A stretch of 41,107 nt of DNA, from contig QHSQ01000109.1 in NCBI GenBank assembly GCA_003221615.1, forward strand, positions 1 through 41,107, given 5' to 3'. The notes under the pieces are model-generated. The model saw only the letters and a list, made by a program, of their open reading frames with translations. It was not told the DNA's origin and did not search any database. Positions 4,210 through 38,545 of this stretch are shown here, one piece after another; positions within the stretch are counted from its first letter, which is position 1; every line of letters starts with the position of its first letter. Position numbers and translations under genes: made by a program. The DNA comes from Candidatus Rokuibacteriota bacterium. Lineage in GTDB: Bacteria > Methylomirabilota > Methylomirabilia > Rokubacteriales > CSP1-6.

Positions 4210-4298
4210 TGTCGGGGAGGACCCCGCCGCGGTGCTCGTGTGGCTGCGGACAACTGCGACGGCGGGCGACGGCGGCGTGCGCGGATGCCGAGCGCACG

Positions 4299-4364
4299 CG
4301 CGGTGTCGCGTGGCTCGAGCCGCGGCTACAGGCCAAGATCAGCTACTCCGAGATGATGCACCGG
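4299..4364 (+). pseudogene. Possible C-terminal scrap of an ATP-dependent DNA ligase
   Basis: Twenty-odd codons reading GVAWLEPRLQAKISYSEMM resemble the final OB-fold strand region of LigD-type ATP-dependent ligases (pattern W-x-x-P-x-L-x-x-x-[IV]-x-[FY]-[ST]-E). Nothing ligase-like precedes or follows, so it would be a relic inside the decayed 4.2-5.05 kb region. The match is short and by eye. Confidence 0.3.
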
Positions 4365-4392: not shown

Positions 4393-4752
4393 ATGACACG
4401 AGCCTTCGACGCTTCCGGTGCAGGGCAGGCGGCGGCGCAGTCCGGGCTCAACGTCGGTGATCTGGCGCCGGCGTTCGAGCTCGACAACCAGGATGGACAG
4501 CTCGTGCGGTCCGCCGACCTGCTGGCCCACGGCACACTGCTGATTACGTTCTTCCGTGGGCACTGGTGACCCTACTGCATGGTAGAGCTGGAAGCTCTGC
4601 AAGCGGTATGGCCGCAGCTTCGAACGCTGGGCGCCTCGCTCGTCGCGATCTCTCCGCACTCTTTGCGGCAGGACTTCTCGTGGCGATCGCATGGCAGTCC
4701 GATACCGCGAGGCGTTCATCCGGGCGCCGGCAGGATGCCATTGGTCGCGTAG
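4393..4752 (+). pseudogene. Truncated peroxiredoxin-like (AhpC/TSA) gene with TGA at the active-site Cys: possible selenoprotein relic
   Basis: The frame from ATG 4393 gives a clear redoxin N-terminus: GDLAPAFELDNQDGQLV, then ADLLAHGTLLITFFRGHW, then an in-frame TGA (4567-4569), then PYCMVELEALQAVWPQLRTL and GASLVAISP. In relatives the motif is GxWCPYC, so TGA falls exactly on the peroxidatic cysteine (codon 59). A 7-bp hairpin begins 12 bases after it (see next entry). Both facts fit selenocysteine. However, similarity ends near 4675, the frame closes at a TAG at 4750 after only about 119 codons (family about 180-220), and a MerR scrap overlaps the end on the other strand. I therefore call it a truncated gene: either a decayed selenoprotein or a cysteine gene hit by a TGC-to-TGA mutation. 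Confidence 0.65.
4582..4600 (+). promoter_or_regulatory. SECIS-like hairpin after the in-frame TGA
   Basis: GTAGAGC (4582-4588), loop TGGAA (4589-4593), GCTCTGC (4594-4600) form seven pairs including one G-U. The loop starts 19 bases after the TGA and has G as its second base. Bacterial SECIS elements are short hairpins with a guanine among the first two loop bases, at about this distance from the UGA. The stem also encodes the ordinary family sequence VELEAL, so chance pairing is possible. Confidence 0.4.
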
Positions 4753-4805
4753 AGCCGCAGCGCCTTGCGGCTGACACCGCTGCGCGCGGAGAGCTCGCCG
4801 ATGAG
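4716..4805 (-). pseudogene. MerR-family regulator, N-terminal scrap
   Basis: The minus strand reads LIGELSARSGVSRKALRLY then ATNGILPAPG and stops at TGA. This is the typical first helix-turn-helix of MerR regulators (IGELA-x-x-[ST]GV-x-x-x-x-[IL]R-x-Y-E-x-x-G-[IL]-[LI]-P). About 29 of some 130 residues remain, with no start codon or RBS visible and a broken downstream frame. It is dead and lies among other scraps. Confidence 0.65.
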
Positions 4806-4819
4806 CAAGCCGTACCACG

Positions 4820-5006
4820 AACACGATTGAGCGGTTCCACGAGGAATTTCGGCGCCGCGTGAAGACGCAAGGCTCGCTGCCGAGCGAAGACGCGGCGCTG
4901 GTCCTGCTCTTCATCCTCGTGGCCGGCGGGCTCTCAAGTTGCGCCGGATCGATGGCTGGCAGAAGATGGCCACAGTGCTCAACCAGCATAGCAATGGCGG
5001 CATGAG
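4820..5006 (+). pseudogene. IS256-type transposase, C-terminal fragment
   Basis: NTIERFHEEFRRRVKTQG then LPSEDAALVLLFILVA matches the C-terminal part of IS256-family transposases around and after the catalytic Glu (NTIER). A frameshift near 4928 moves the continuing similarity (LKLRRIDGWQKMATVLNQH) to another frame. The rest of the transposase is absent. It is a decayed insertion of a subtype different from the intact copy at 13-1287, whose end reads quite differently. Confidence 0.75.
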
Positions 5007-13341: not shown

Positions 13342-16515
<3,174 letters not shown>

Positions 16516-16541
16516 ACGCAATGACAGGAGGAAGACAACCG

Positions 16542-16949
16542 ATGACGCGTCTGACCGCAATGGTGACAGCGTTCGCGTTCGTGTTCGGAGCCGGGGCCGC
16601 AGGCTGGGCCGCGGAGAAGACGTTAGCCACTCAGAAGACCAAGGACGTCGTCGTGACACTGAAGAGTGAAGCCGGCCAGTGGAAGCAGGGCAAGAACGAC
16701 TTCGCCCTGGAGTTCACGTCGGCCAAGGAGAAGCAACCTGTCGATGTCGGCAAGGTGACGCTGAATACCAGCATGACGATGTCCGGGATGGCCCCGATGA
16801 TCGCCGGCGCGACCCTGAAGCCCGACAAGACGCCCGGCCGCTACGTCGGCACGATCGAGTTTCCCGACACGGGCACGCGCCAGGTGACGGTCGCCTGGGA
16901 TGGGCCGGCCGGCAAGGGCTCGACGAAGTTCTCGGTTCCGGTCCGTTAG
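16542..16949 (+). CDS. FixH/YtkA-like exported protein in the efflux operon
   Basis: 135 residues: signal peptide [23 protein letters not shown], then one beta-sandwich domain with the FixH/YtkA-type pattern ([21 protein letters not shown], then [41 protein letters not shown]). The Met cluster MTMSGMAPM in the middle may bind Cu(I). ATG 16542 has AGGAGGAAG upstream, preferable to the in-frame ATG at 16521. It lies 26 bases after the RND gene and 4 before the channel gene, so it is part of that operon. A periplasmic metallochaperone role is inference. Confidence 0.82.
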
Positions 16950-16953
16950 CGCC

Positions 16954-18252
16954 ATGCCTGGGCTACGCGGAACGCTCGCGTCGCTCGTCGTTGTGGCGAC
17001 CCTGGCCGCCACCGGCATCGCTCAGGCCCAGCCCGGCGCCGAGGTCACGGTGGACGAGCTCGTCGCCCGTGCGCTCGCCGACAGCCCCGATCTCCGCGCT
17101 GCACGCGCAGAGATCGAGGCGTCCATCGGGCGCTTGCAGCAAGCGGGCTTGCGTCCGAACCCGATGCTCGAGCTGGGCGGCCAGAAGGCACTGAGCCCAG
17201 ACAACAACGTCACGATCGGGCTCACCGTCCCGCTCGATCTCAACGGCCGAAAGGAAGGCCGTGTCGGCGTCGCGGAGCGCGAGCTGCAGATGAAGCGGGC
17301 ACAGGTCCGTGACCGGGAGCGGCGCCTGGCCGCCGACGTCCGCATGAAGGCGGGGGAGGTGTTGGCGGCCCGACGCGGCCTGGCCGTCACCGACGATCTG
17401 TTGACCGTGAACCGCGCCGCACTCCGTCTCGTTCAGAATCGCGTGCGCGAGGGCGCGACGCCGGAGCTCGACGAAAACCTCATGCTGGTCGAGGTGAATC
17501 GCCTCGATGCGACGCGACAGATGCTCGCGAGCCGTGTTGACATCGCGTCGCTCCAGCTGAGAGCGCTCGCCGGGATGGCTCCCGACGCGCCGCTTGCTCT
17601 GCGCGGCGACCTCGCCTCGGCCGTGCCGATACCGCCGGCGGACGAGGCAGCACGTCAGGCCCTGACGAACCGGCCCGATCTCGACGCGGCCCGCGCCGAC
17701 GTCGCGATGGGCGCGGCCAAGATTCGCAAGGAGCAGGCCGAAGGCCGATGGGACGCCAGCGTCAACGTCGGGTATCAGCGGCAGGACTTCGGTTTCGACC
17801 TGAACGGCGTGACGAACACGGGTGCTACCCGCCCGATCCAGGACGTGTTCCATTACTTCGGTGCCGGCGTGAGCATCGTGCTGCCGGTGCGAAACCGCAA
17901 TCAGGGCAACATCGCCGCGGCGGCGGCGGAGGCGCAGGCGGCCGAGCGGCGGCTTCAGTTCGCGGAGCTGGCCGTGCGCCAGGAGGTGGCCGCAGCGCTC
18001 GCGCAGTACGAGGCTGCGCGTCGCTCGCTCGGAATCTACGAGCGCGGCGTGCGCGACGTGGCCACGCGCAACCTCAGCGTGGTGCGGCAGACGTACGGGC
18101 TGGGACGCGGCTCGCTGCTCGACGTGATTGCCGAGCAGCGGCGGTATATCGACATCGAGAACGGCTACACGGATGTGCTGCGGCAGGTGTACGACGCCCG
18201 GGTCGAGATCGATCGCGTCACCGGGGTGATGACGCCGGCGGCGGGGAGATGA
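16954..18252 (+). CDS. TolC-family outer membrane efflux channel (CusC/CzcC type)
   Basis: 432 residues with signal peptide (MPGLRGTLASLVVVATLAAT, cleavage near AQAQP). Two outer-membrane efflux protein repeats follow, each with long amphipathic helices: the first begins VTVDELVARALADSPDLRAA, the second near TNRPDLDAARADVAMGAAKI; the conserved ends are GRKEGRVGVAERELQ and GRGSLLDVIAEQRRYI. It would form the outer-membrane exit duct for the RND pump. The start codon ATG 16954 lies 4 bases after the preceding stop, and the following adaptor gene begins 3 bases after its end, so translation is probably coupled. Confidence 0.93.
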   Translation: MPGLRGTLASLVVVATLAATGIAQAQPGAEVTVDELVARALADSPDLRAARAEIEASIGRLQQAGLRPNPMLELGGQKALSPDNNVTIGLTVPLDLNGRKEGRVGVAERELQMKRAQVRDRERRLAADVRMKAGEVLAARRGLAVTDDLLTVNRAALRLVQNRVREGATPELDENLMLVEVNRLDATRQMLASRVDIASLQLRALAGMAPDAPLALRGDLASAVPIPPADEAARQALTNRPDLDAARADVAMGAAKIRKEQAEGRWDASVNVGYQRQDFGFDLNGVTNTGATRPIQDVFHYFGAGVSIVLPVRNRNQGNIAAAAAEAQAAERRLQFAELAVRQEVAAALAQYEAARRSLGIYERGVRDVATRNLSVVRQTYGLGRGSLLDVIAEQRRYIDIENGYTDVLRQVYDARVEIDRVTGVMTPAAGR

Positions 18253-18255
18253 GCG

Positions 18256-19596
18256 ATGGAAGGCGATGATGATGTGATCGACGACCACAGCGCTCGAGGC
18301 CGCCGTGGACGCATACGCCGATCCGTCGGCCTGGCTGCCGGTGCCGTTGCGCTGCTGATCGTCGGCGCCGTGGGAGGCGTCGTCTGGAGCGAGCGACACG
18401 GCGGTGTGCGCGCGCGGCCAGCCGCAGACAGCCGTGACGCTCAAACTCCGGCTGCTTCGCCGGACAATCGGCCCATGCCTGGAATGCCGGGCATGCCCGC
18501 GCCATCCGGTCAGGCGGCGGCGGATAAGACCGACGAAGCCGTCGAAGTCTCGTTGACCCCGGAGGCTGTCGAACGCGCGGGAATCAAGATCGCCGAGGCG
18601 AAGGCTGAGTCGTCGGTCTCGGGCGTCACCGTCCCCGGGACCGTGATGTCCAACGCGTACCGCGACACGAAGGTGAACGCGCTCGTCGGCGGTATCGTGC
18701 GACAGGTGATGGTGGAGCTCGGCGCGGAGGTTCACCGAGGCACGCCGCTGGCCGTGATCTTCAGCTCCGAACTGGCGGATGCGCAGATGAAGTATCTCTC
18801 GATGCGCGCGATGCTGGAGGCTGACCATCAGAAGCTCGAGCGGACACAGAAGCTGGTGGCGCTCGGCTCCGCGAGCCGACAGGAGCTGGAAGAGGTAACG
18901 GCCGTCCACACCGGCCATGAGACCGAAGTGGCCGCGGCGCGACAGCGGCTACTGCTGCTCGGCCTTTCATCGGAGCGCGTTGCCAGCCTGGAGGGCGCAT
19001 CACATGTCGTTTCGGAAATCACGGTGATGTCGCCGGCTGACGGCTTGGTCATCGCGCGTTCGGTGAATCCCGGGCAGGTCATCAACGCCGGCCAGGAGCT
19101 GTTCGTCGTCACCGACCTGAGTACCGTCTGGATCATCGGCGATCTCTACGAGCGCGATTTCTCGCGCGTTCGCGTCGGCTCCCCGGTCACAATCACTCTC
19201 CCGTCCATGCCCGACCGCTCGGTGACGGGGCGCGTGGCCTATATCGACCCCCGAGTGGATCCAGCGACACGGACGGCGAAGGTGCGGGTCGAAGTGCCGA
19301 ACCGCGGCGGCGACCTTCGCCTCGGCATGTTTGTCACTATGAGCATCCGGACCGGCACGACGGAGCGGATCACGGTCGTGCCCCGCGCCGCCGTGCAGAC
19401 AATCGGCGACCGCTCGGTCGTCTACGTCCCGGCTGAAGGGGAGGAAGGCAAGTTCGTCGAGCGCGCGGTGAAGGTCGGGCCACCGGCCGGGGAATTCGTG
19501 CCGATTCTGAACGGGCTCAAGCCCGGTGACAAAGTGGTGACCGATGGAAGCTTCTACCTTCGCGCCGAAGCCGCGCGAACGCGGTCCGGCGGATGA
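18256..19596 (+). CDS. cusB-like: RND periplasmic adaptor (membrane fusion protein, CusB type)
   Basis: 446 residues linking pump and channel in the periplasm. One N-terminal transmembrane anchor (RSVGLAAGAVALLIVGAVGG), a short linker with the Met-rich run MPGMPGMP that may bind Cu or Ag, a barrel-sandwich half (VNALVGGIVRQVMVELGAEV), a helical hairpin (about residues 175-240), the second half (ITVMSPADGLVIARSVNPGQ), a beta-barrel (VWIIGDLYERDFSRVRVGSP) and a membrane-proximal domain (VPRAAVQTIGDRSVVYVP). The order pump, FixH-like, channel, adaptor is a single rightward operon; GGGGAGATGAGCG supplies the ribosome site. Confidence 0.94.
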   Translation: MEGDDDVIDDHSARGRRGRIRRSVGLAAGAVALLIVGAVGGVVWSERHGGVRARPAADSRDAQTPAASPDNRPMPGMPGMPAPSGQAAADKTDEAVEVSLTPEAVERAGIKIAEAKAESSVSGVTVPGTVMSNAYRDTKVNALVGGIVRQVMVELGAEVHRGTPLAVIFSSELADAQMKYLSMRAMLEADHQKLERTQKLVALGSASRQELEEVTAVHTGHETEVAAARQRLLLLGLSSERVASLEGASHVVSEITVMSPADGLVIARSVNPGQVINAGQELFVVTDLSTVWIIGDLYERDFSRVRVGSPVTITLPSMPDRSVTGRVAYIDPRVDPATRTAKVRVEVPNRGGDLRLGMFVTMSIRTGTTERITVVPRAAVQTIGDRSVVYVPAEGEEGKFVERAVKVGPPAGEFVPILNGLKPGDKVVTDGSFYLRAEAARTRSGG

Positions 19597-37360: not shown

Positions 37361-38545
37361 ATGACAGTTTCCAGGGGTCGCGAGTTCCTCAGCATTCCGG
37401 GGCCCACGAACATTCCCGACGCCGTGCTCGCCGCGATGCATCGACCGGCCATCGACATCTACGCCGGCGACATGATCGCTGTCACGCACAGCCTTCTCGA
37501 GGATCTGCCGAAGATCTTCCGGACGACGGGGCGCACCTACATCTACGCCGCGAACGGCCACGGCGGCTGGGAGGCCGCGCTCACCAACGTGTTGTCGAGA
37601 GGCGAGACCGTGCTGGTGCTCGAGAGCGGCCTGTTCGCGCTCGGGTGGGGCGACATGGCGCGGATGATGGGCGTCAAAGTTGAAGTCTTGAAGGGTAATC
37701 CGCGGCGCGCCGTCGATCCCGCGGCGCTTGCGCAGCGCCTCGCCGCCGATACCGCGCGCGAGATCAAGGCCATTCTCGTCGTCCAGATCGATACCGCGTC
37801 GGGCGTGGTGAACGATCTCGCGGCGATCCATCGCGCGATCGCGTCCGTCGTGCACCCCGCGCTGCTGATGGTGGATTGCGTCGCGTCGCTTGGCTGCATG
37901 CCATTCGCGATGGATGAGTGGGGCATCGACGTCGCGATGGCGGGCTCGCAGAAGGGGCTGATGACGCCCCCCGGTCTCGCGTTCGTCGCCGCCAACGAGC
38001 GCGCACACGGCGCGCATCAGCGCGCGGACCTGCGCACGCGCTACTGGGATTGGACGTTCCGCAACGGCGAAGCGCACTACCAGAAGTACGGAGGCACGCC
38101 GCCGCAGCACCTGCTCTTCGGCTTGCGCAAGGCGCTCGATATGCTCTTCGAGGAAGGCCTCGACGCGGCGATCCGCCGCCACGCGCTGCTCGCGGAGGCG
38201 ACGCGCCACGCCGTGAGCCGGTGGGCGGAGGCGGACGCGGTCGCGTTCAACATCGTCCGCCCCGAGGAGCGCGCCAACTCGGTGACCACGGTGCTCGTGC
38301 AGGGCCGCGAGCCGAGCGCGCTCAGCGACTATTGTCGCGAGAAGTGCGGCGTCGTCCTCGGCCGCGGGATTGGTGAGCTGCAGGGCCGCGCTTTCCGGAT
38401 CGCCCACATGGGACACGTCAACGCGCCGATGGTATTCGGCGTGCTCGGTGCGATCGAGATGGCGCTCGGCGCGCTGGGCATCCCCCACGGACGCGGCGGC
38501 CTCCAGGCCGCCGTGGAATATCTTGGACGCGAGGTGCGCCCCTAG
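37361..38545 (+). CDS. Class V aminotransferase, serine-glyoxylate type
   Basis: 394-residue PLP enzyme of the AGXT/SgaA branch, cytoplasmic. Start REFLSIPGPTNIPDAVLAAM is diagnostic; NGHGGWEAALTNVLSRG binds the cofactor phosphate; LLMVDCVASLGCMPFAMDEW holds the cofactor Asp; and MAGSQKGLMTPPGLAFV has the Schiff-base Lys K198. The end KCGVVLGRGIGELQGRAFRI with RIAHMGH is also typical. Probably transfers an amino group from serine or alanine to glyoxylate. ATG at 37361 without a strong RBS. It is followed 31 bases on by an alpha/beta hydrolase gene, likely the same transcript. Confidence 0.93.
   Translation: MTVSRGREFLSIPGPTNIPDAVLAAMHRPAIDIYAGDMIAVTHSLLEDLPKIFRTTGRTYIYAANGHGGWEAALTNVLSRGETVLVLESGLFALGWGDMARMMGVKVEVLKGNPRRAVDPAALAQRLAADTAREIKAILVVQIDTASGVVNDLAAIHRAIASVVHPALLMVDCVASLGCMPFAMDEWGIDVAMAGSQKGLMTPPGLAFVAANERAHGAHQRADLRTRYWDWTFRNGEAHYQKYGGTPPQHLLFGLRKALDMLFEEGLDAAIRRHALLAEATRHAVSRWAEADAVAFNIVRPEERANSVTTVLVQGREPSALSDYCREKCGVVLGRGIGELQGRAFRIAHMGHVNAPMVFGVLGAIEMALGALGIPHGRGGLQAAVEYLGREVRP

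Follow-up and report, generated by a model that had tools for sequence, protein, structure and literature searches.

Bacterial selenoproteins of the peroxiredoxin-like (Prx-like) type with a UxxC motif, in which U is selenocysteine (Sec), have already been published: a passage in PMC1088965 describes them, and rows of a table in PMC13188914 also list UxxC Prx-like selenoproteins (PF00578). The rule for the bacterial SECIS element, as a passage in PMC1088965 states it, calls for a guanosine within a small apical loop. Relict forms are touched on in a passage of PMC1794560, which concerns remnant SECIS-like structures behind Cys codons; the pseudogene mention in PMC5029168 concerns selD, and our limited literature search found no published fragment of a bacterial selenoprotein gene. 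A Methylomirabilota metagenome-assembled genome with 63 predicted selenoproteins is mentioned in a passage of PMC13188914, which cites another paper for it.

The locus described here lies in a stretch of 41,107 nucleotides (contig QHSQ01000109.1 of a Candidatus Rokuibacteriota bacterium), hereafter the window. On its forward strand, an open frame reads FFRGHW-TGA-PYCMVELEAL around a single in-frame TGA and ends at TAG (Table 1). A Pfam profile search with the TGA read as a residue matched residues 21-98 of this frame to the AhpC-TSA family (PF00578; 2e-14, 54 bits), in agreement with a sequence-only reading that had noticed an in-frame TGA in a redoxin-like frame. The match covers positions 1-77 of the 124 in the profile, a partial domain, and the best intact relative (locus L027) scores 78 bits over profile positions 1-123. 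The frame thus combines the PF00578 domain and the UxxC motif of Prx-like selenoproteins with the domain only in part, and its in-frame UGA stands at a redox position and is kept in relatives, as in a bacterial selenoprotein gene.

Homology to the family is confined to the interior of the frame. The best relative, in a genome from another genus of the family (G009), is intact, with 233 codons counted from the first ATG, and is identical to the window at 197 of 212 bases (93%). In ungapped comparison with this relative, identity at the left edge is 58/60 bases inside and 18/60 just before position 4447, and at the right edge 56/59 inside and 19/60 just after position 4658; the protein match is confined to residues 42-118 of 233. 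The gene is incomplete, having lost about 47 codons at its N-terminal end and about 115 at its C-terminal end. Similarity had earlier been thought to stop near 4675, which holds for a loss on the 3' side but misses that homology ends on both sides. Intact relatives are about 220-233 amino acids long, and the two that were checked stay below every NCBIfam cut-off. When the missing parts were looked for in the window's own genome, the only match over them was a paralogue at 42% identity on contig C474. The intact relative is flanked upstream by a divergent LysR-type gene and downstream by a gene for a sigma-54 activator; the fragment in the window is flanked by pieces of other genes.

Table 1. 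Features at the selenoprotein-related locus of the window (positions are those of the window)
Feature	Position	Strand	Remarks
Hybrid open frame	4393..4752	+	119 codons including TGA, then TAG; both ends without family homology
Internal fragment of a Sec Prx-like (AhpC/TSA, UxxC) gene	4447..4658	+	Codons 48-117 of L027 (233 codons)
In-frame TGA, read as an inherited selenocysteine codon	4567..4569	+	Motif W-U-P-Y-C; TGA in relatives
Bacterial SECIS-type hairpin	4582..4600	+	7 bp, loop TGGAA; stem kept in Sec relatives
ATP-dependent DNA ligase gene fragment, C-terminal region	4298..4356	+	78% over 59 bases to G027
merR-family regulator gene fragment, 5' part	4698..4813	-	91% to G019; relative is a 146-aa MerR frame
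IS256-type transposase gene fragment, 3' end	4811..5005	+	87% to G016

The relative that matches the DNA ligase piece carries PF01068 and PF04679, and the piece falls in its reading frame. The transposase piece resembles many sites across the family and, judged by eye from its six frames, contains frame shifts; its relative in G016 carries PF00872. At the start of the contig (13-1287, + strand) is a full-length-looking IS256-family transposase (NF033543) that by eye belongs to another subgroup than the transposase fragment. Further along, at 13342-19596, are frames that by eye resemble a heavy-metal efflux operon, and the merR piece resembles a merR gene adjoining similar efflux-like frames in locus L149.

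Only an internal piece of 212 bases is left, lying among broken pieces of other genes, and so a selenoprotein gene of a known kind has very probably decayed in the window, leaving a dead internal fragment. The statement that this "is, or was, a selenoprotein" therefore holds, with the evidence pointing to "was," given how little of the gene remains. Substitution patterns were examined as pN/pS in 349 of the 351 pairs among 27 relatives (those with pS defined and below 0.7; loci L019 and L053-L055 left out). Over 210 bases, the fragment and its best relative differ at 15 and give a value of 0.83; the 349 other pairs have a median of 0.52 and a maximum of 1.1, and a pair of similar divergence (L041-L047) gives 0.88. 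Since other pairs give values both below and above that of the fragment, this test neither supports nor refutes decay.

An alternative explanation, which we regard as unlikely, is an artifact of assembly or binning, in which an intact Sec gene exists in the real genome and unrelated pieces were misjoined at 4447 and 4658, or the contig is foreign. The window is one contig (C245) of a 7.24-Mb draft in 596 contigs, estimated to be 96.5% complete and 8.55% contaminated, which leaves room for such errors. In addition, the fragment is 93% identical to G009, yet the selA-selB region is only 78% identical between the window's own genome (G000) and G009 (79% between the own genome and the same-genus genome G013). 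This disparity suggests, as far as sequence identity can indicate, that the fragment either was transferred within the family or sits on a foreign contig. However, several misjoins within 0.75 kb would be needed, since the DNA ligase, merR, and IS256 pieces are truncated too, and no intact close copy was found elsewhere in the own genome. Farther along the contig, positions 37361-38537 show 93% identity to the same-genus G013 and 85% to G056 of another genus, so that high identity at a single locus is not unusual here and the contig has at least one part close to its own genus.

Far less probable still is that the hybrid frame is a live, shortened selenoprotein, a Sec cassette fused to new ends. 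The frame is open across both joins except for the TGA, the TGA and hairpin are intact, and pN/pS gives no clear sign of decay, but the AhpC/TSA profile match breaks off at 77 of 124 positions and the surroundings are gene debris. Moreover, the same joined arrangement, or indeed any two of these pieces joined as in the window, was not listed in 57 genomes with eight candidates per genome scored. The fragment does retain the UGA, the hairpin, and the active-site region. We give just as little credence to the related conjecture that active site, UGA, and SECIS were transferred together as a 212-base recoding cassette and are now being tried in a new short fusion selenoprotein.

That the fragment derives from a selenoprotein gene is supported by its relatives. 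In a scan of 57 genomes of the family, 35 had matches at E ≤ 1e-8, and among the matches listed, 59 of 62 contained one TGA (58 of 61 without the window); the other three, two in G050 and one in G023, had no internal stop. In a scan of 95 genomes of the phylum, 28 had matches at E ≤ 1e-12, and one TGA was present in all 31 listed matches including the window (30 of 30 others). The counts from both scans record the presence of a TGA and not its place, which was read for L027-L055 but not, for example, for G094; in the 29 family loci read, it stood at the motif W-U-P-[YF]-C every time. The search for Sec or Cys in homologues that had been recommended thus returned TGA in nearly all close matches listed. 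When the window was used as query against its own genome (E ≤ 1e-3), 10 other matches were found, five with one TGA (on C474, C125, and C47, and two frames on C126) and five without a stop. The idea that all thioredoxin-fold relatives in the genome are Sec frames was accordingly rejected.

Several side observations concern these relatives. Directly behind the intact Sec Prx-like paralogue on C474 (L018) is an OsmC-family frame (PF02566) with its own in-frame TGA (L018:967-969, - strand; AF-U-LMTQ, a UxxT motif) and a predicted hairpin behind it. The OsmC-like UxxT motif occurred in 7 of 30 loci scanned, in seven genomes, one of these loci being too short to fold. In locus L048 (G018:C351), the Sec Prx-like frame departs from the family after ...RDFGN and continues, by eye, into an OsmC-like gene tail, as if an internal deletion or a misassembly had fused the two.

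The recoding signal has also been preserved. Bacterial SECIS elements have an allowed range of spacing between the UGA and the hairpin. In the window, the hairpin has arms at 4582-4588 and 4594-4600, with G as the second loop base and a gap of 19 bases from the TGA to the loop, in line with the sequence-only reading; it thus has a G in a small apical loop just 3' of the UGA. Conservation was examined in the 27 closer Sec relatives (L018 and L027-L052), a set that left out the window and a second group (L019 and L053-L055) with a different predicted hairpin behind the UGA. In these, the 7-pair stem was formed in 97.9% of cells, against a shuffled mean of 95.4%, a value reached by 0 of 500 shuffles, and RNAalifold independently gave the same hairpin, displaced outward-in by one pair. 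The covariation score was 0.179, against a shuffled mean of 0.125 (0 of 500 shuffles reached it), but covariation is thin: four of the seven stem pairs are invariant, and only one pair varies in both of its bases, a count equalled or exceeded in 474 of 500 shuffles. Pair 17-33 is C-G in 18 relatives, U-A in seven, U-G in one, and unpaired in one.

The sequence-only reading had also proposed scoring the hairpin with a model and had named a lack of conservation in relatives as a refuting result. A covariance model built from the 27 relatives without the window scored 53.1 bits at 4567-4626 (E 8.1e-11), against 8.7 bits at the next-best place in the window, although much of this score reflects shared coding sequence rather than structure. 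Genome-wide, with 150 of 9,020 candidates scored, the model found only the window and the paralogue on C474 (81.2 bits), itself a member of the model. As for conservation, a stem of at least 6 pairs was present in 26 of the 27 Sec relatives and in none of 80 Cys homologues (L068-L147, the best 80 of 540 confirmed), a control that is unmatched, with titles that are proteobacterial and so of another phylum, and that was retrieved with two search patterns, one of which demands Cys. With the same control, GG in the loop was found in 27/27 against 0/80, and the Ala codon GCT in 27/27 against 3/80. The hairpin in the window exceeds chance.

Genes for Sec incorporation, which the sequence-only reading had asked to be looked for, are all in the window's genome. 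The tRNA-Sec scores 69.8 bits (Rfam cut-off, 47) and is also called by ARAGORN as tRNA-SeC with anticodon TCA; selB scores 377 bits (cut-off, 242) and selA 587 bits (cut-off, 268), and these three lie together within 5 kb at C263:26277-31016. A selD match scores 334 bits (cut-off, 125), with one in-frame TGA inside it. As these genes are present, close homologues carry TGA, and the hairpin is kept in relatives, neither of the refuting results named by the sequence-only reading was obtained.

Given the TGA at W-U-P-[YF]-C in family relatives and the Sec genes in the genome, the TGA in the window is, on comparative grounds, an inherited Sec codon and no TGC-to-TGA accident. An ordinary Cys gene struck by a single TGC-to-TGA nonsense mutation, an alternative that had been left standing, has next to no likelihood: Cys homologues at 51-60% identity do exist in proteobacteria (among the best 80 of 540 confirmed) and three of 62 listed family matches have no internal stop, but intact family relatives have TGA at the same codon, for which reason we reject it, and the hairpin is missing from the Cys homologues examined.

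Presumably the parent gene worked as its intact relatives should: SelB would have bound the hairpin together with Sec-tRNA, so that the ribosome decoded the UGA as Sec. The product would have been a thiol oxidoreductase or peroxidase of the thioredoxin fold, with Sec-Pro-Tyr-Cys as its active site. A rearrangement, perhaps via insertion elements, would then have trimmed the copy to its 212 bases and left it among other broken genes, with no working product from the leftover frame.

In this lineage, what looks like a nonsense codon can in fact stand for Sec, even where the gene copy is dead, and both the relic and its living relatives could be misread by routine annotation. The living UPYC group, with one TGA in each close match listed in the phylum, would repay study more than the relic, and in seven genomes its gene is followed by an OsmC-like frame with a TGA of its own.

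How the locus relates to known systems depends on which residue the TGA replaces. The earlier reading had placed the TGA exactly at the peroxidatic cysteine, which proved wrong. In profile alignments with 2ywn and 2cx3, two peroxiredoxins of solved structure, the TGA falls opposite the Thr/Ser of the classical motif; it is the C of PYC that pairs with the Cys of TxxC/SxxC, which we take to be the peroxidatic Cys. The motif is therefore UxxC and not the TxxU of Sec-containing peroxiredoxin, and the Thr/Ser that classical peroxiredoxins have three residues before the peroxidatic Cys/Sec is replaced here by the TGA codon. Sec-containing peroxiredoxin (TxxU) and the window gene belong to the same Pfam family, but the window gene has U at the place of Thr and Cys at the place of U. 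A TxxU paralogue (L020) is present in the window's own genome. It is one of two adjacent thioredoxin-fold frames at G000:C126:13265-14337 (L020 and L023), both with an in-frame TGA: the TxxU peroxiredoxin (AAFTPTUTKEL; PF00578) and a putative thioredoxin-like frame (WATWUPDC).

At the protein level, the proteobacterial Cys homologues are 51-60% identical to most of the intact Sec relative, but all 80 have Cys for Sec and all 80 lack a 6-bp stem at this place. Closest are the published UxxC Prx-like selenoproteins. From these the window copy differs in being a fragment; it resembles them in its AhpC/TSA domain, in the Sec of UxxC, and in a hairpin whose small apical loop contains a G.
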